A stretch of DNA of 35,871 nt from Gammaproteobacteria bacterium (GTDB lineage Bacteria; Pseudomonadota; Gammaproteobacteria; Chromatiales; Chromatiaceae), in NCBI GenBank assembly GCA_024276875.1, contig JAJRWL010000150.1, positions 1-35,871 on the forward strand, written 5' to 3'. The notes below the pieces were generated by a model. The model was not told the origin of the DNA. It did not search any database and was given only the letters and a program-made list of their open reading frames with translations. The position numbers and the translations under genes are program-made. Shown piece after piece: positions 1-16,151 of this stretch (position 1 is its first letter; each line of letters starts with the position of its first letter).

Positions 1-2272
1 CCGCCCAATTTAATAACGGTGTCTGATCCGTCGCCTGAAAGGGGGTGCGGGAAATCTCTCGCCAATTGCCTGCACCGTGGCACTGAGCCGCGCAGTAGGG
101 GTCAACACTGTTACTGATCAGGATGGATTCATTACTGGCAGCCAGGGTGACATTGCTCGGATTGGGTGTGCCCGGCGGATTGGGAAGCGGGCCAAAGGCG
201 GTATTCCAGAACCAGAGGCGGATCGGGGTGTAACCCACCAGTTCACCCGTGCGAATCATGGAGTGATTTTTGGTGCCATGGGGATTGTGGCAAGTGATGC
301 AGGTCAGGCGGCTATTAAAGGTCGTGCCCCAATCGGCCTTTATCAGGTCAGGAATATGGCTGAGATGCTTGTAGTGCAGACTGCCGCCCGCCGCCAGATC
401 ATAAAAATTAGAGTTAGTGGCCGCCGGATCGGTAAAGGCGGTGGTGATATCACCATGACAACCGGAACGCAGACAGAGCAGGAAGTCCGTGGTTTGCACT
501 CCGCCGCCAATACGTGGCATCTTCAAGGGGGCTGAACCGGCAAAGAAGCGCATCCGGTAGCTTGTGCCGTACTCATTTGAATCGCAGCCATCGCTGCAAT
601 CAAAGGTGCGGGCATTTCCATCAATATGCAGTTTTATGCTTTGGTGACAATAGGTGCAGCTCTTGTCCGGCCCTGGTTTGATGCCCCCCGTGGCGGGGAG
701 GGTCGTGCTGCTGGGTGTGCCATGGCCGGTCTTATAAAACCCCCAACCCACACCATAGTTAAATGCTTCTGTCTCATTACCAATCGTCATTGGTGCAGTA
801 ACATCAATGCCCCTGTCTACTAGCACGATGTGGGAGGGATCATTGTCATGACAGCCGGCACACCACTTCTCTTTGCCTGGCTTGAAGTTGTAGTCAGCAT
901 CATAGATGCCCTCTGAGTGCCAATTGTCCTTGGCGCCCACCGAGCCATCCACCGAATCCACCCCGTTATAGTCCCCACCCGGACTATGACAGCTGGCACA
1001 GATGCTGGTCTCAGCCAGACTGATCTTGCCATCCGCATTGGTGTCATCCGCCGCATAGACACCATCCTTCCTGAAGGTCGGCATGTTATCGGTATCATGG
1101 CAGTAACTACAGTAGATGCCGGGGCCGCGCAGGTCATCATCACCTGCACCGGCCGGTTTAGTGGTCTCCCAAGTCGCACCATTGGTCGTCCAGCTCTCAG
1201 TGTGGGTGGTATGCGGAATGACAGAACCAAACCCTCGACTGGTTTTGGTGCTGCCATTGGGAAAGTAGGGATAGGTGCCATCTGGGTCATAGATCGTGCC
1301 CTCTTCGTGGCCATGGCACTCAATACAGAGGGTGACATTGGTATTACCTTTACCATGGCCAAAACCACCGATATGTTGATGGCATTTATCGGTGCAGTTC
1401 TCACCCGCTGTTCCGTTGGGGTCACCCCGGTCAGCATTCATATGCAACTGGTCTATCCCTGTACCATCATTCTTAAAATGTGCTGTTTTTGTATGGCAGA
1501 CCTGACAGACACCGTCTAGCGTAACATCACTGTCGGCAAAGGAGTTTGTACCTGTTTGACCAAAGAATTTAACCTGCTTCCAAGTCGTCGTCCCTGGCAC
1601 CTTAATTTGATTCCGAATGACTTTTCCATAAACGACACCATAGGTATCACCTGCTGCAATATAGGCAGTATTGATGATGCCATCCAGGGTCAGCGTGGTC
1701 GCAGTGTTGCTCAACACCCGATAGCTGAGATTTCCCACCGGTACACCACGACGGTCGCGCACATTAATATCTGGAAAGACAACACGACCCGCATGTTCAT
1801 CGACCGTCCAGGTTGCATCGTTGTCAGTTAGGGTGCTAGTGGCTCCGGAGGCAACGGCCTCAAGTACGCCCGTCGCAAGAAAAGATGCCGTGCCAAAGGT
1901 TTGAAATTGGGATTGATTGTGCGGGTCATGACAATCTTTACACTCAACATACCAAGCACCGAAATCCTCTTCACCAATCACCCCACTGGAGTGCGGCACA
2001 CGGTAAGGCGCTAATGCAGGGCCGGTATGGCAACTCCAGCAAAGGTTATTGGCCTCGGTGTTATCCGCTCCCATACCGGGGTTAGGGGTTGAAGACTTCA
2101 GCAAACTACCCGCTGAGCCATGCAGATCATGGCAGCTAAGGCAGCCGATATTAGGAAGTATGGGATTGGCAGGCTCATGAGGGAAATCCAAGCCATGAAC
2201 AATAGAGGCCATGAAGGCTAAAAATATAGCCAAAGATAGGCTTTTTATAGATATTCTTGCTTTTGCTACCAT
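1..2272 (-). CDS. Secreted multiheme c-type cytochrome (CxxCH / CxxxxCH type), 3' end truncated by the window edge
   Basis: Manual minus-strand translation from ATG at 2272 (MVAKARISIKSLSLAIFLAFMASIVHGLDFPHEPANPILPNIGCLSCHDLHG...) stays open to position 1. Canonical CXXCH motifs read: CLSCH, CWSCH, CKDCH, CQVCH, CIECH, CSYCH, CASCH, CAGCH, CTYCH, CITCH. Variant motifs: CTDKCH, CLRSGCH, CAAQCH. N-terminal signal peptide. Not in the ORF track because no stop codon lies inside the window. Confidence 0.93.
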   Translation of the reverse strand, partial: MVAKARISIKSLSLAIFLAFMASIVHGLDFPHEPANPILPNIGCLSCHDLHGSAGSLLKSSTPNPGMGADNTEANNLCWSCHTGPALAPYRVPHSSGVIGEEDFGAWYVECKDCHDPHNQSQFQTFGTASFLATGVLEAVASGATSTLTDNDATWTVDEHAGRVVFPDINVRDRRGVPVGNLSYRVLSNTATTLTLDGIINTAYIAAGDTYGVVYGKVIRNQIKVPGTTTWKQVKFFGQTGTNSFADSDVTLDGVCQVCHTKTAHFKNDGTGIDQLHMNADRGDPNGTAGENCTDKCHQHIGGFGHGKGNTNVTLCIECHGHEEGTIYDPDGTYPYFPNGSTKTSRGFGSVIPHTTHTESWTTNGATWETTKPAGAGDDDLRGPGIYCSYCHDTDNMPTFRKDGVYAADDTNADGKISLAETSICASCHSPGGDYNGVDSVDGSVGAKDNWHSEGIYDADYNFKPGKEKWCAGCHDNDPSHIVLVDRGIDVTAPMTIGNETEAFNYGVGWGFYKTGHGTPSSTTLPATGGIKPGPDKSCTYCHQSIKLHIDGNARTFDCSDGCDSNEYGTSYRMRFFAGSAPLKMPRIGGGVQTTDFLLCLRSGCHGDITTAFTDPAATNSNFYDLAAGGSLHYKHLSHIPDLIKADWGTTFNSRLTCITCHNPHGTKNHSMIRTGELVGYTPIRLWFWNTAFGPLPNPPGTPNPSNVTLAASNESILISNSVDPYCAAQCHGAGNWREISRTPFQATDQTPLLNWA

Positions 2273-3021: not shown

Positions 3022-4275
3022 ATGCCTAAAAACCACATAAAACCCAGTCAACTTTGCATCGGTCTGTATATTCAGCTAGATCTATCCTGGATACAGCACT
3101 CATTTATTTCGAGTAACTTCAAAATAAAAAATGAAAAACAACTGGCAGATTTAAAAAAGCTGAAGCTATCTGGCATTAGATATGACCCTTCCCGCAGTGA
3201 TGTTGAGCCACTATCTCTTACACAAAAAGTAGCCGCTGATCCTAATGCTGAAGCTAAAATATCAACTCAATTAGAGGCCAGAAAACAAAAGGCAAAACAG
3301 GCACGCATCAAAAAAATGGCAGCGAGGACACAAAGCCTAAACCGCTGTGAAAAAGCCTATACAGAGACCGCCTCTACACTACGAAATGTGATGCGCAACA
3401 TCATGTCACAACCTAAAGCGGCTATTGAGGAAGCTGAAGTAATGGTTTCAGGCATGGTGGGGTCTCTGATGCAAGATCAGGAAGCCACTATGCATTTGGT
3501 TAATATGAAGGGAAAGAATGAAAATACCTATTTTCACGCCATCAATGTCACCATCCTTGCATTAATGCTAGGTAAGCAGCTGGGGTTAAATAAACAGCAG
3601 ATGGAAGATCTTGGAACGGGCGCATTGTTTCATGACCTTGGATACAGTGAGATTCCAGATAAAATCCTGTTAAAGACAGAACCATTAAATAGGGCTGAAT
3701 TGAATTTTCTTCATATGCACCCAGAATATGGCGCACGTCAGGCTAAGCAGATTGGCAGTATTCCACCTGAAGCAATAAAAATCATAGAGCAGCACCACGA
3801 AATGATTGATGGAAGTGGCTATCCAAAAGGATTAAGAGAACATCAAATTTCAGACCTGTCACAAATTGTTGCTATTGTGAATGCCTACGATAATTTATGT
3901 AATCAAAAAGATGCCAGCAAATCTTGCTCACCTTATGAAGCTATTTCCATCCTATTTGCTAGGGAAAAGCACCGATTTAATAAAGAGAAAATAACCTTAT
4001 TTATTTCAAATATGGGGGTCTATCCTCCTGGAACAGTGGTTAAATTATCAGACGAAAGCATTGCCGTTGTTATGTCAATTAACCCAAAAGCACTGCTGAC
4101 ACCAAAAGTGATGCTTTACGACCCAAAAATCCCTAGCTCTGAAGCCTACATTTTGGATCTTTATGAAGCGGGGCTTAAAATTACAGACAGCATTCGTATA
4201 AGTAATTTACCCGAAGAGGTACGCAATTATTTTAATTTGGGTGATGCTGTAAACGTATTTATCGATTCTAATTAG
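3022..4275 (+). CDS. DUF3391 + HD-GYP domain protein (putative c-di-GMP phosphodiesterase)
   Basis: N-terminal DUF3391-like region; HD motif (GALFHDLGYSEIPDKIL), HPEYGA, HHEMIDGSGYPKGL (GYP) and IVAIVNAYDNL. Confidence 0.9.
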   Translation: MPKNHIKPSQLCIGLYIQLDLSWIQHSFISSNFKIKNEKQLADLKKLKLSGIRYDPSRSDVEPLSLTQKVAADPNAEAKISTQLEARKQKAKQARIKKMAARTQSLNRCEKAYTETASTLRNVMRNIMSQPKAAIEEAEVMVSGMVGSLMQDQEATMHLVNMKGKNENTYFHAINVTILALMLGKQLGLNKQQMEDLGTGALFHDLGYSEIPDKILLKTEPLNRAELNFLHMHPEYGARQAKQIGSIPPEAIKIIEQHHEMIDGSGYPKGLREHQISDLSQIVAIVNAYDNLCNQKDASKSCSPYEAISILFAREKHRFNKEKITLFISNMGVYPPGTVVKLSDESIAVVMSINPKALLTPKVMLYDPKIPSSEAYILDLYEAGLKITDSIRISNLPEEVRNYFNLGDAVNVFIDSN

Positions 4276-4351: not shown

Positions 4352-4705
4352 CTAATTGGAGAGTGTCGTTTGAGAGTAATGTAGAATTTCAGCTCTGATA
4401 CGTGAACGAAAAGGCTCAGGAAGACGAGACCATGCTTCAGCCACCGTACGCGCCTCTGTGTTTATATTGTTGTTGGTCTCTTCTCCAAACATTAACCAAG
4501 AAGGCGTTACTTCAAGCGCAGACGCAATTTCATTAATCTTTCTGGGTCGTAAACTGCGACCATTCTCAATCTTCTGAATAACGGCTTGATTCGTTCCAGC
4601 CTGTGCTGCCAACTGGTCTTGTGTCCAACCCTTCTCTCGTCGCCGGCAACGTAGCCTTTCGCCAAGTGAAAGTGGATAAGTAGGTATCGTGTTAAATTCA
4701 GTCAT
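4352..4705 (-). CDS. XRE-family helix-turn-helix transcriptional regulator
   Basis: LGERLRCRRREKGWTQDQLAAQAGTNQAVIQKIENGRSLRPRKINEIASALEVTPSWLMFG is a classic Cro/C1 HTH. Confidence 0.9.
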   Translation of the reverse strand: MTEFNTIPTYPLSLGERLRCRRREKGWTQDQLAAQAGTNQAVIQKIENGRSLRPRKINEIASALEVTPSWLMFGEETNNNINTEARTVAEAWSRLPEPFRSRIRAEILHYSQTTLSN

Positions 4706-12401: not shown

Positions 12402-13397
12402 ATGCGTCACCTTTTAATTCTATTACTGGGTTCTCTACTCAGCTTCCAAACCCAGGCAGCGACCTTAAAGATCGCCACACTCGCCCCCGATGGTACCCTC
12501 TGGATGAAACTCATGCGGGAAGGGGCAAAGGAGGTAAAAAAAGCCACCAACGGCCGAGTTAAGATCCGTTTTTACCCCGGTGGAGTCATGGGCAATGATA
12601 AAAGCGTATTGCGCAAGATCAGGGTAGGGCAGCTACAGGGTGGCGCACTGACAGGAGGTGGGTTAATCCCTATCTGCCAAGCATGTCAACTCTACAGTCT
12701 CCCTTTCATCTTTTACTCTTATGCTGAAGTTGATTATGTACGCCAACGCATGGATCCACGGCTCAATCGTTCTTTAGCGGACAAGGGGTTCATTGGCTTT
12801 GGTATCAGTGAAGGGGGGTTTGCCTATCTCATGTCAAATCACCCCGTTACCCAGGTAAAGCAACTCAAAGAGCAGAAGGTCTGGGTTCCTGAGTGCGATC
12901 AAGTCAGCCGCACCGCCTTTGAGTCGCTGGCCATATCCCCCATCCCTTTACCACTCACCGATGTACTGACCGGATTACAGACAGGACTCATCAATACCGT
13001 TGCAACCTCTCCAACTGCCGCTATCGCCTTGCAGTGGCATACCCAGGTTAAATATCTTACCGACATGCCACTGCTCTATCTTTACGGCATGCTGGTGATT
13101 CAAAAGCGTGCCTTTCAACGACTCTCAAAACAGGATCAGATCACCGTGAGAGGGATTATGGAAAACACCTTCCATAAAATTAACGAACAGAGTCGACAGG
13201 ATAATATCAATGCCCAAAAAGCACTACAGAGCCAAGGCATCCAATTTACCCACCCATCGCCCACTGATATTACCCAATGGCGAACAATTATTGATCAGGC
13301 TGTGAACCAAATGGGAGAGAAGGGTGTCTACCCATCAAAGATGCTGGCAGAGTTACGCCAACATCTTAAGAAGTTAAGAGGCTCAGTGAATCAATAA
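12402..13397 (+). CDS. TRAP transporter substrate-binding protein (DctP family)
   Basis: Signal peptide; LKIATLAPDGTLWMKLMREGAKEVKKATNGRVKIRFYPGGVMGND; ALTGGGL. Confidence 0.9.
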   Translation: MRHLLILLLGSLLSFQTQAATLKIATLAPDGTLWMKLMREGAKEVKKATNGRVKIRFYPGGVMGNDKSVLRKIRVGQLQGGALTGGGLIPICQACQLYSLPFIFYSYAEVDYVRQRMDPRLNRSLADKGFIGFGISEGGFAYLMSNHPVTQVKQLKEQKVWVPECDQVSRTAFESLAISPIPLPLTDVLTGLQTGLINTVATSPTAAIALQWHTQVKYLTDMPLLYLYGMLVIQKRAFQRLSKQDQITVRGIMENTFHKINEQSRQDNINAQKALQSQGIQFTHPSPTDITQWRTIIDQAVNQMGEKGVYPSKMLAELRQHLKKLRGSVNQ

Positions 13398-13452
13398 CCC
13401 TGCTTTTTTAGCGTATTGATTGAAAACCTGAGTGAGTTAGTCAGAAATTAAA

Positions 13453-13483
13453 TTTGACCAATGTCAAAACCACTGGTATAAAT
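13453..13483 (+). promoter_or_regulatory. Near-consensus sigma70-type promoter upstream of the cytochrome c5 gene
   Basis: TTGACC (13454-13459), 17-nt spacer, TATAAA (13477-13482). The -35 box lies within the palindrome TTTGACcaatGTCAAA (13453-13468). Confidence 0.6.
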
Positions 13484-13605
13484 CGCAGTTCTTTTTATTT
13501 GACCACAATACACTAGTTGTATGGTCAACTATTGCTTTACAACAACTCATGCCCCAAAACAGTTTTAATAGGACTAGAAATGGGGCCTTTGCGGAGATAG
13601 ATAGT

Positions 13606-13929
13606 ATGAAAAAAACCATTATCGCAATGGCTGCTGCCGGAATGGTGGTATTCGGAATTAACGCCCAGGCCCGTTCTGGTGAAGATGTATTCAACGCTGT
13701 ATGCAAAAACTGTCATGCTGCCCCTATGGCCGCTGCTCTTATGGCACCAGAGATTGGCAACAAAGAGCAATGGGCTCCACGTATTGCCAAAGGTAAGGAT
13801 GCCCTGTATGCAGTCGCCCTCAACGGTTCTACCGTAAACCCTGCTATGGTTCCTCGCGGTACCTGCCCAGATTGCTCCGATGATGAGCTGAAAGCGACTG
13901 TTGATTACATTATCAGCAAAAGCCAGTAA
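13606..13929 (+). CDS. Cytochrome c5-like monoheme cytochrome c (start revised from the 13549 ORF start)
   Basis: Signal peptide MKKTIIAMAAAGMVVFGINAQA; heme motif CKNCH; C-terminal MVPRGTCPDCSDDELKATVDYI typical of c5; purine-rich RBS gcggagat before the ATG. Confidence 0.9.
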   Translation: MKKTIIAMAAAGMVVFGINAQARSGEDVFNAVCKNCHAAPMAAALMAPEIGNKEQWAPRIAKGKDALYAVALNGSTVNPAMVPRGTCPDCSDDELKATVDYIISKSQ

Positions 13930-13962
13930 AACACCGTAGCGTCATCATCTGATAACACTACT

Positions 13963-13998
13963 AAAAAAGCGGGGGATCAATGATCCCCCGCTTTTTTT
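13963..13998 (+). terminator. Strong intrinsic terminator after cytochrome c5
   Basis: AAAAAAGCGGGGGATCA-a-TGATCCCCCGCTTTTTTT near-perfect hairpin with a T-tract, potentially bidirectional. Confidence 0.92.
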
Positions 13999-14056
13999 AT
14001 GCTCATCTAAAAATTTTAGTGTCTGTCTTACCTGCAATCCTCTATAAATAGAGGAT

Positions 14057-14380
14057 ATGCCCCCAATCAATCTTTTCTCTGCTGTTTCTGGCTTATCTCA
14101 AGGTGAAAGCTTTAAAACGCTTCTGCGCCATAAAAATATTGTCATTGAGCGCATTGTCAGTACCGACAATATTAAAGCCAAATGCTATAACCAACCGCAA
14201 GATGAATGGGTCGCCCTGCTGCAAGGGGAGGCCAAATTAGCATTGGATGGCAAAGAGATCACGCTACGCCGTGGGGATAGCTACTTTATTCCTGCCCACA
14301 CGCCACATCACATCATTACCACCTCAGCTGAACCACGCTGCATTTGGCTGGCCATCCATATTTTTGCGGATGAACCCTAA
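14057..14380 (+). CDS. Cupin-domain protein
   Basis: DEWVALLQGEAKLALDGKEITLRRGDSYFIPAHTPHHI cupin motifs. Confidence 0.88.
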   Translation: MPPINLFSAVSGLSQGESFKTLLRHKNIVIERIVSTDNIKAKCYNQPQDEWVALLQGEAKLALDGKEITLRRGDSYFIPAHTPHHIITTSAEPRCIWLAIHIFADEP

Positions 14381-14880
14381 TGAGCGAATCCCTCTTCCCG
14401 CTTTTGCGCTGCACTAAACGACACCTATTGGTTGTTGAAAATGGTCTATTGGTGCTGCTACTCACCGCCATGATCCTGCTGGCAACGCTCCAAATTATAC
14501 TGCGAAATGGCTGGGCTACGGGGCTCAGTTGGGCAGATCCCGCACTACGGGTGGCGGTGCTCTGGATCACTCTTTTAGGGGCGATGGCGGCCACACGAGA
14601 TAGCAATCACATTAAGATTGATCTGCTGACCCGTTTTCTACCCGCACAGCTAAAAATTTATGCCCAACTCATCACCGATCTTTTTAGTGCCTTTATCTGT
14701 GGCATATTGGCTTGGCATGGTGGCCATTTTGTCTATTTTGAGTGGCAGGATGAGAGCATCCTGTTTGCCTCTGTTCCTGCCTGGGCATGTGAACTGATTA
14801 TCCCCTTTGGGTTTGGCGTGATGGCGCTGCGCTTTCTGGTGAGTGGATTGCTAAAAATCAGCCCCCAGAGCAGCAGATGA
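14380..14880 (+). CDS. TRAP transporter small permease (DctQ family)
   Basis: Four-TM pattern; LQIILRNGWATGLSWADPALRVAVLWITLLGAMAATRDSNHIKIDLL. Overlaps the cupin and dctM genes. Confidence 0.9.
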   Translation: MSESLFPLLRCTKRHLLVVENGLLVLLLTAMILLATLQIILRNGWATGLSWADPALRVAVLWITLLGAMAATRDSNHIKIDLLTRFLPAQLKIYAQLITDLFSAFICGILAWHGGHFVYFEWQDESILFASVPAWACELIIPFGFGVMALRFLVSGLLKISPQSSR

Positions 14881-16151
14881 TTCTAACTGGGCTATTGCTT
14901 ATTCTGCTGGCGCTACTGGGCACACCCCTGTTTATTATTATTGCTGCCAGTGCCTTGCTGGGATTTCATCAATCAGAGATTGACCTCTCTGTCGTTACCA
15001 TCGAGTTCTACCGCATTGCCGAGATGCCGGTGCTGCTGGCTATCCCACTCTTTGCCTTTGCCGGTTACCTACTCAGTGAAAGCCAAGCACCCCAACGACT
15101 GGTTCACGTGACCCATGCGCTGCTGGGATGGCTTCCCGGTGGACTGGCTATTGTCTCATTGGTGGCCTGCGCACTCTTTACTGCCTTTACGGGGGCTTCC
15201 GGTGTCACCATTGTGGCTTTGGGCGCCTTGTTATACCCCGCACTGACACAAGCCGGTTACAAACAGAACTTTGGATTAGGGCTGGTAACAACCTCTGGCA
15301 GCCTGGGGCTGCTCTTTGCCCCTGCACTGCCTTTGATTCTCTATGCCGTGATTGCTCAACAGCTGGGCATCGGCAACGGTATCACCGTGGATGATATGTT
15401 TCTGGCCGGTATTCTGCCGGGACTGCTGATGCTGACCATGCTTTCAATCTGGAGCATCTGGTCTAGCCGTAATCAACCACTCTCACCCTTCTCTTGGGCG
15501 GAAGCAGGCCGTGCCCTGCGAGCAGCCGCTTGGGAGATACCCCTACCGATCGTGGTACTAGGCGGTGTTTATAGTGGCTATTTCGCTATTTCAGAAGCCG
15601 CTGCAGTGACGGCCTTTTATGTGCTGGTGGTAGAGGTGCTGATTCACCGTGAGATCAAGCCAAAGGCACTGCCAAAAATCATGCGGGAGGCAATGGTACT
15701 GGTGGGGGGGATTCTGGTTATTCTGGGGATGTCTCTGGCCTCGACCAGCTATCTTATTGATGCAGAGGTGCCTGCTCGTCTATTTGAGATGGTGCGTTCA
15801 CACGTCACAGATAAGATCACCTTTCTGATCCTGCTCAATCTATTCCTGCTGATACTGGGAACCATGTTGGATATCTTTTCTGCCATCGTACTGATGGTTC
15901 CACTGCTGCTGCCCATTGCACTAGGCTATGGCATTGATCCTGTGCATCTGGGCATCATCTTTCTGGCCAACATGCAGATTGGTTACTTCACCCCCCCCGT
16001 CGGCATGAATCTGTTCATTGCCAGCTATCGCTTTAATAAACCCATTCTTCAGCTCTACAAAGCAACGCTGCCCTGGTTTCTGATCCTGTTATTGGCCGTG
16101 CTGATCATCACCTACTGGCCTGCACTGTCACTCACATTGGTGGGAAGATGA
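14877..16151 (+). CDS. TRAP transporter large permease (DctM family)
   Basis: 424 aa polytopic; FTAFTGASGVTIVALGALLYPAL, GSLGLLFAPALPLILYAVIA, FLANMQIGYFTPPVGMNLFIASY. Confidence 0.95.
   Translation: MILTGLLLILLALLGTPLFIIIAASALLGFHQSEIDLSVVTIEFYRIAEMPVLLAIPLFAFAGYLLSESQAPQRLVHVTHALLGWLPGGLAIVSLVACALFTAFTGASGVTIVALGALLYPALTQAGYKQNFGLGLVTTSGSLGLLFAPALPLILYAVIAQQLGIGNGITVDDMFLAGILPGLLMLTMLSIWSIWSSRNQPLSPFSWAEAGRALRAAAWEIPLPIVVLGGVYSGYFAISEAAAVTAFYVLVVEVLIHREIKPKALPKIMREAMVLVGGILVILGMSLASTSYLIDAEVPARLFEMVRSHVTDKITFLILLNLFLLILGTMLDIFSAIVLMVPLLLPIALGYGIDPVHLGIIFLANMQIGYFTPPVGMNLFIASYRFNKPILQLYKATLPWFLILLLAVLIITYWPALSLTLVGR

Follow-up and report, generated by a model that had tools for sequence, protein, structure and literature searches.

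A putative giant secreted cytochrome with a 13-haem head and an adhesin-like tail in a Sedimenticola-like gammaproteobacterium

An open gene at the contig end and its intact orthologues

The window, meaning the whole stretch of DNA that was analysed (35,871 bp), is the entire contig C127 of a draft genome of 239 contigs and 2.47 Mb. At its left end, a minus-strand frame starting from an ATG at position 2272 stays open down to position 2 and runs past the contig end, yielding 757 codons without a single stop as against 13-67 stops in each of the remaining five reading frames. This feature (2..2272, minus strand) represents the 13-haem head, the 5′ part of a giant multihaem cytochrome gene orthologous to proteins of 3332-3357 aa. 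Identity between the window protein and its orthologues in three genomes of the same genus amounts to 89, 85, and 82% across all 757 residues, with a dN/dS ratio of about 0.08 (dN and dS pairs of 0.06/0.74, 0.09/1.26, and 0.11/1.38). Judged by these full-length orthologues, 82-89% identical, and by the ratio near 0.08, the minus-strand frame is a real gene, and the gene as a whole is, on the same substitution rates, under strong purifying selection. Since the window is a whole contig, the gene, with its 3′ end cut off at codon 757, is not completable leftwards in the present assembly, and the length of the intact orthologues (3,332, 3,341, and 3,357 residues) implies that about 23% of it lies in the window.

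A probable Sec signal peptide occupies residues 1-27 (MVAKARISIKSLSLAIFLAFMASIVHG; 2192..2272, minus strand), as read from the translation and from an N-terminal hydropathy peak in the orthologues. It has no lipobox; the end of the signal peptide is devoid of cysteine, the first cysteine of the window protein being residue 44, and hydropathy revealed no transmembrane-like stretch thereafter.

The orthologues, which align over their full length at 81% and 72% identity, carry all 13 haem motifs before residue 740, within the first ~735 aa, and none in the remaining ~2,600 aa. In the orthologue of genome G005 (3331 aa read), this tail, continuous with the haem head in one polypeptide, exceeds the Pfam cut-offs for beta-helix regions (PF13229 Beta_helix, six stretches, 112 bits) and for fn3 (PF00041, 37 bits). 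The orthologue tail also displays weak GEVED-like repeats and a choice-of-anchor Q match, and is acidic and without any membrane-helix-like stretch. When the orthologous tail was sought in the other contigs of the window's genome, it was not found, and the tail of the window gene is therefore taken from the orthologues. On that reading, the window gene would encode a protein of ~3,300 residues, consisting of a 13-haem head and a ~2,600-residue haem-free tail of the adhesin kind.

An ORF on contig C34 (790 aa, 5′ end open, with FN3 and beta-helix domains) was considered as the missing tail and rejected, since it shares 78% identity with the end of G005 paralogue b (see below) and not with that of a, the type to which the window gene belongs. 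The same identity indicates that the window's genome also contains a b copy at least in part, namely its 3′ end, and the three a orthologues argue against an a-type head joined to the C34 tail in this genome.

The original prediction, made from the window sequence, was right in every checkable detail of its observation, having described a minus-strand frame of at least 757 aa open from 2272 to the window edge, a signal peptide, at least ten CXXCH motifs along with CTDKCH, CAAQCH, and CLRSGCH, and a haem-free stretch of ~140 residues between the third and fourth haems. As far as orthologue evidence reaches, the frame would also continue to the left of the window, with neither frameshift nor stop in the three orthologues. 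Its description of a multihaem cytochrome holds for the head, in which 13 motifs are seen; the haem-free tail, three quarters of the orthologous proteins, was missed.

The thirteen haem motifs and the haem-free insert

The window protein contains 13 haem motifs in total, comprising ten CXXCH, two CX3CH, and one CX4CH. Shuffling of its residues produced a mean of 0.15 and a maximum of 3 motifs in 2,000 trials, and the five alternative reading frames contain 0-4, compared with 13 in the real protein. Haems 1-3 (CLSCH at residue 44, CWSCH at 78, and CKDCH at 111; 1928..2143, minus strand) form a Paired_CXXCH_1/Cytochrome_C7-like group, and haems 4-13 (77..1507, minus strand) include a stretch, residues 291-480, matching PF22113 (MtrC/MtrF domains II/IV); Paired_CXXCH_1, Cytochrome_C7, and PF22113 all exceed their Pfam cut-offs in the head. 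Two cysteines outside the haem motifs, in CSDGCD (residues 559-564; 581..598, minus strand), are limited in the alignment to the a and b clades. Across the nine closest sequences, 15 histidines that belong to no haem motif are invariant, a number sufficient for a distal ligand at each of the 13 haems, so that every haem probably has a distal histidine. With its several CX2-4CH motifs, predicted export by Sec, and candidate distal histidine ligands, the protein is to be classed as a c-type multihaem cytochrome. AlphaFold2 on the whole head reached a pLDDT of 30 (9 sequences).

The haem-free stretch between haems 3 and 4 spans residues 116-255. Within it, AlphaFold2 modelled a conserved insert (residues 118-229; 1586..1921, minus strand; alignment of 16 relatives) as a small all-beta domain with a pLDDT of 80, and in the model the insert is a structured domain and not a linker. 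A comparison of this beta-insert with solved structures in the PDB returned no significant relative (best E 0.078, TM about 0.4-0.5).

The three unusual motifs lie at sites 5 (CTDKCH, residue 293; 1379..1396), 11 (CLRSGCH, residue 600; 455..475), and 13 (CAAQCH, residue 727; 77..94), all on the minus strand. Site 5 is CX3CH in paralogues a, b, and c and in all three copies of G311, a member of another genus of the family, and is CXXCH at the equivalent place in G353 (CTQCH), in a Calditrichaeota protein (CLDCH), and in G017 (protein G017d, CTFCH). The CX4CH form of site 11 occurs only in the four a-clade genes, a well-supported group in the tree; at this position b, c, G311, and G353 have CXXCH, and the Calditrichaeota protein has CX3CH (CWQSCH). 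At site 13, CX3CH is shared by a, b, and c, G311 and G353 show CXXCH, and the Calditrichaeota motif is CX4CH (CNIGHCH, taken from the sequence by eye, one alignment having split the motif). Between paralogues, and in further genera and a second phylum, the spacer thus shifts among two, three, and four residues; the branches of the G353 and Calditrichaeota rows are long. At all three sites, both cysteines and the histidine are retained in nine of the nine closest sequences, with spacers that vary in length and letters.

It is very likely, from this conservation of the odd sites or from the ordinary motifs at equivalent positions in relatives, that all 13 sites hold haem. The unusual positions are kept, or canonical, at homologous places. 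The remark in the original prediction that haem attachment to CX3CH and CX4CH motifs is usually unknown was too strong, given that MmcA of Methanosarcina acetivorans, with five CXXCH, one CX3CH, and one CX4CH, was demonstrated by LC-MS/MS to carry haem on all of them (PMC11024163); CX4CH is also present twice in cytochrome c3 (PMC10454114).

Paralogues, distant relatives, and genomic surroundings

Two paralogues share the same 13 sites and differ in their tails, namely b (2,707 and 2,723 aa), in which Chlam_PMP and GEVED are additionally over cut-off in the tail, and c (1,654-1,662 aa). Paralogues a and b lie close together on one strand in G005, as do c and a in G003. In G002, the c copy is intact and apparently broken a-type and b-type remains with internal stops are seen (G002:C27:18031-18512 and G002:C21:4210-4940); with only broken a and b copies seen, these copies appear dispensable there. 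G311 encodes three copies (2,327, 2,325, and 1,087 aa) of 13 sites each, with beta-helix/NosD or Big_5 tails, and the more distant G017 protein (2,053 aa) has 16 motifs and a LamG domain. The G353 homologue (L088:3019-5490; 823 aa, 10 motifs) lacks a long tail and bears a lipobox-like LITAC, as read from the sequence, and may possibly be an outer-membrane lipoprotein form of the head. Further afield, the last ten haem sites of the Calditrichaeota protein (L044:9059-12469; 1,136 aa, 28 motifs) correspond by homology to sites 4-13 in the window protein, and a Nitrospirae protein (L050:1613-13036; 3,807 aa) has no motif in its N-terminal ~775 residues and 57 CX2-4CH motifs beyond them, with many CX4CH among these.

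A class-wide search of 274 genomes found strong relatives only in the window's own genome. Only a few genera of the family have relatives of the protein, and weaker ones occur in Calditrichaeota, Planctomycetota, and other groups. The records of the nearest ones are labelled Sedimenticola sp., Gammaproteobacteria or, for one MAG, Polarisedimenticolaceae, and their isolate names suggest deep-sea sampling.

The upstream region of the gene contains a divergent gene with an HD domain (HD-GYP-like; 3022-4275) and a regulator of the Cro/C1 type (4352-4705, minus strand). In five genomes, that of the window included, a very similar 117-aa Cro/C1-type HTH protein is encoded upstream of a giant cytochrome of type a or c (relatives at G005:C66:50796-51149, G003:C21:9151-9504, G004:C13:28705-29058, and G002:C27:9736-10089), making it a candidate regulator of the giant cytochrome. 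Elsewhere in the window, TRAP transporter genes occupy 12402-16151, of which DctP was confirmed with Pfam and the DctQ- and DctM-like genes were recognised by reading; a gene for a single-haem cytochrome c (13549-13929) separates the binding protein from the membrane parts.

The adjacent porin or MtrA-type partner that the original prediction suggested looking for was not recognised among the ORFs read in the window or in the neighbourhoods of its relatives. Profile searches of the draft genomes detected MtrB (PF11854) in none of seven and TIGR03508 below cut-off only; the T2SS secretin GspD exceeds its cut-off in every one of the seven. Multihaem genes are numerous in the window's own genome, among them genes for 24- and 28-haem proteins next to those for NHL proteins. 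Its clusters L067 (G000:C141) and L069 (G000:C218, 6550-12286) contain multihaem genes (24, 11, and 28 motifs, and smaller) together with NHL beta-propeller proteins, and the C141 cluster also holds ResB/CcsA-type assembly genes; the two clusters are likely an electron-conduit region. CcmF was not found in this draft genome and is over cut-off in three relatives.

Proposed role and comparison with known systems

The reading favoured here, at a probability of about 0.62, is that of a giant secreted cytochrome of a Sedimenticola-like gammaproteobacterium, in which a 13-haem electron-transfer head is carried on an adhesin-like stalk. The protein would be exported by Sec, receive its haems in the periplasm, and then most likely be transferred to the cell surface, the T2SS secretin being present. 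The tail would bind a cell surface, matrix, mineral, or partner cell, and the head would relay electrons between the other multihaem cytochromes of the cell and the bound surface, the most likely role thus being contact-dependent electron exchange supplied by the other multihaem clusters. We infer haem occupancy, surface location, adhesion, and electron transfer alike from sequence. An outer-surface location is likely in view of the adhesin-like tail, the PF22113 match, and the presence of the T2SS; neither an anchor nor a sorting signal was identified for the giant cytochrome, nor was a neighbouring porin gene.

Sedimenticola is a genus known for sulfur oxidation. The Sedimenticola labels of the nearest relatives, together with the conserved beta-domain and the PF22113 (MtrC/MtrF) match in the head, would suit a multihaem enzyme at the surface that reduces or oxidises a specific substrate such as a metal oxide or sulfur compound, with the head as the enzyme and the tail as an anchor only. 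Such an enzyme is considered unlikely, however, as the 15 invariant spare histidines suffice for every haem, so that an open iron site is not indicated, and the octahaem reductase models of NCBIfam were unmatched at E<=10. A somewhat lower probability still is assigned to a protein that is mainly an adhesin or biofilm matrix component, whose haem head polymerises or stores electrons in the manner of a cytochrome nanowire or capacitor: the adhesin-like part makes up most of the orthologues and each genome has several paralogues with changing tails, but sequence comparison with PDB chains showed no likeness to a cytochrome filament or other cytochrome, a profile search included, which gave nothing credible. 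Least probable is a 10-haem head with the CX3CH and CX4CH sites as degenerate leftovers, for although relaxed constraint could also produce the variation in spacers, the haem-binding residues persist despite it in all nine closest sequences, relatives have canonical CXXCH at the equivalent positions, the gene as a whole is strongly constrained, and MmcA carries haem on both unusual motifs (PMC11024163).

Beyond the preferred reading of a secreted cytochrome on an adhesin-like stalk, a broader and distinctly more tentative proposal is that of an electroactive adhesin family in Sedimenticola-like gammaproteobacteria, whose 13-haem heads, mounted on interchangeable stalks (beta-helix, Big, or FN3), would both attach the cell to a mineral or partner and connect it electrically, the haem sites drifting between CX2CH, CX3CH, and CX4CH without loss of haem. 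A homologous set in which one haem site occurs as CX2CH, CX3CH, or CX4CH makes haem attachment to unusual motifs, and the effect of motif spacing on redox potential, testable site by site. The giant fusions of cytochrome and adhesin-like parts in Sedimenticola-like bacteria also point to contact-based electron exchange in this group, which is not described in the literature searched; the titles and abstracts on Sedimenticola and multihaem cytochromes contain nothing on proteins of this kind.

With regard to established families, the outer-membrane decahaem family OmcA/MtrC resembles the head in its beta-domain and multihaem parts and in the PF22113 match, but here there are 13 haems arranged as 3 + 10, no lipobox, a huge tail, and no MtrB in the genome. 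Model TIGR03507 was not matched by the window protein at E<=10 nor by three full-length relatives at E<=1, and OmcA/MtrC membership was rejected on that ground and for want of a lipobox and of MtrA/MtrB partners in the draft genomes. Kinship to the Geobacter CxxxxCH/CxxCH type, which the original prediction mentioned, was likewise rejected, since the window protein matched neither TIGR01904 nor PF09698 at E<=10; the CX4CH motif is common to both, whereas here it is one clade-specific variant of a CXXCH site. Failing both sets of models, the head belongs to neither family.

Closer parallels are found in architecture and motif usage. MmcA shares the mixture of CXXCH, CX3CH, and CX4CH sites, but has seven haems in 476 aa, is membrane-associated, and has no adhesin tail. 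The PCC3 cytochromes of Gallionellaceae, multihaem and predicted to be extracellular, have 10-35 motifs similarly counted as CX2-4CH (PMC10734462), and are encoded beside a porin and a periplasmic cytochrome, whereas no such neighbours were recognised here. In OetF, the cytochrome c of a likely conduit in syntrophic sulfate reducers, fibronectin domains are suggested to bind the matrix or partner (PMC10553843), a comparable pairing of cytochrome c and fibronectin domains; OetF is part of the oet conduit, whereas the present gene stands alone without a porin neighbour. The ANME MHC type C proteins are multihaem cytochromes with a pectin-lyase-like domain suggested to recognise the outer wall of the partner (PMC9012536), and likewise join a giant multihaem c-type cytochrome to a domain of the parallel beta-helix kind; they are archaeal, often with many more haems, and their domain is N-terminal whereas the present one is C-terminal, the likeness being one of architecture. 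Fusions of beta-helix and multihaem parts, and of fibronectin domains and cytochromes, are thus already known from ANME MHC-C and OetF, to which the combination of a 13-haem head with an adhesin-like tail adds a variant.
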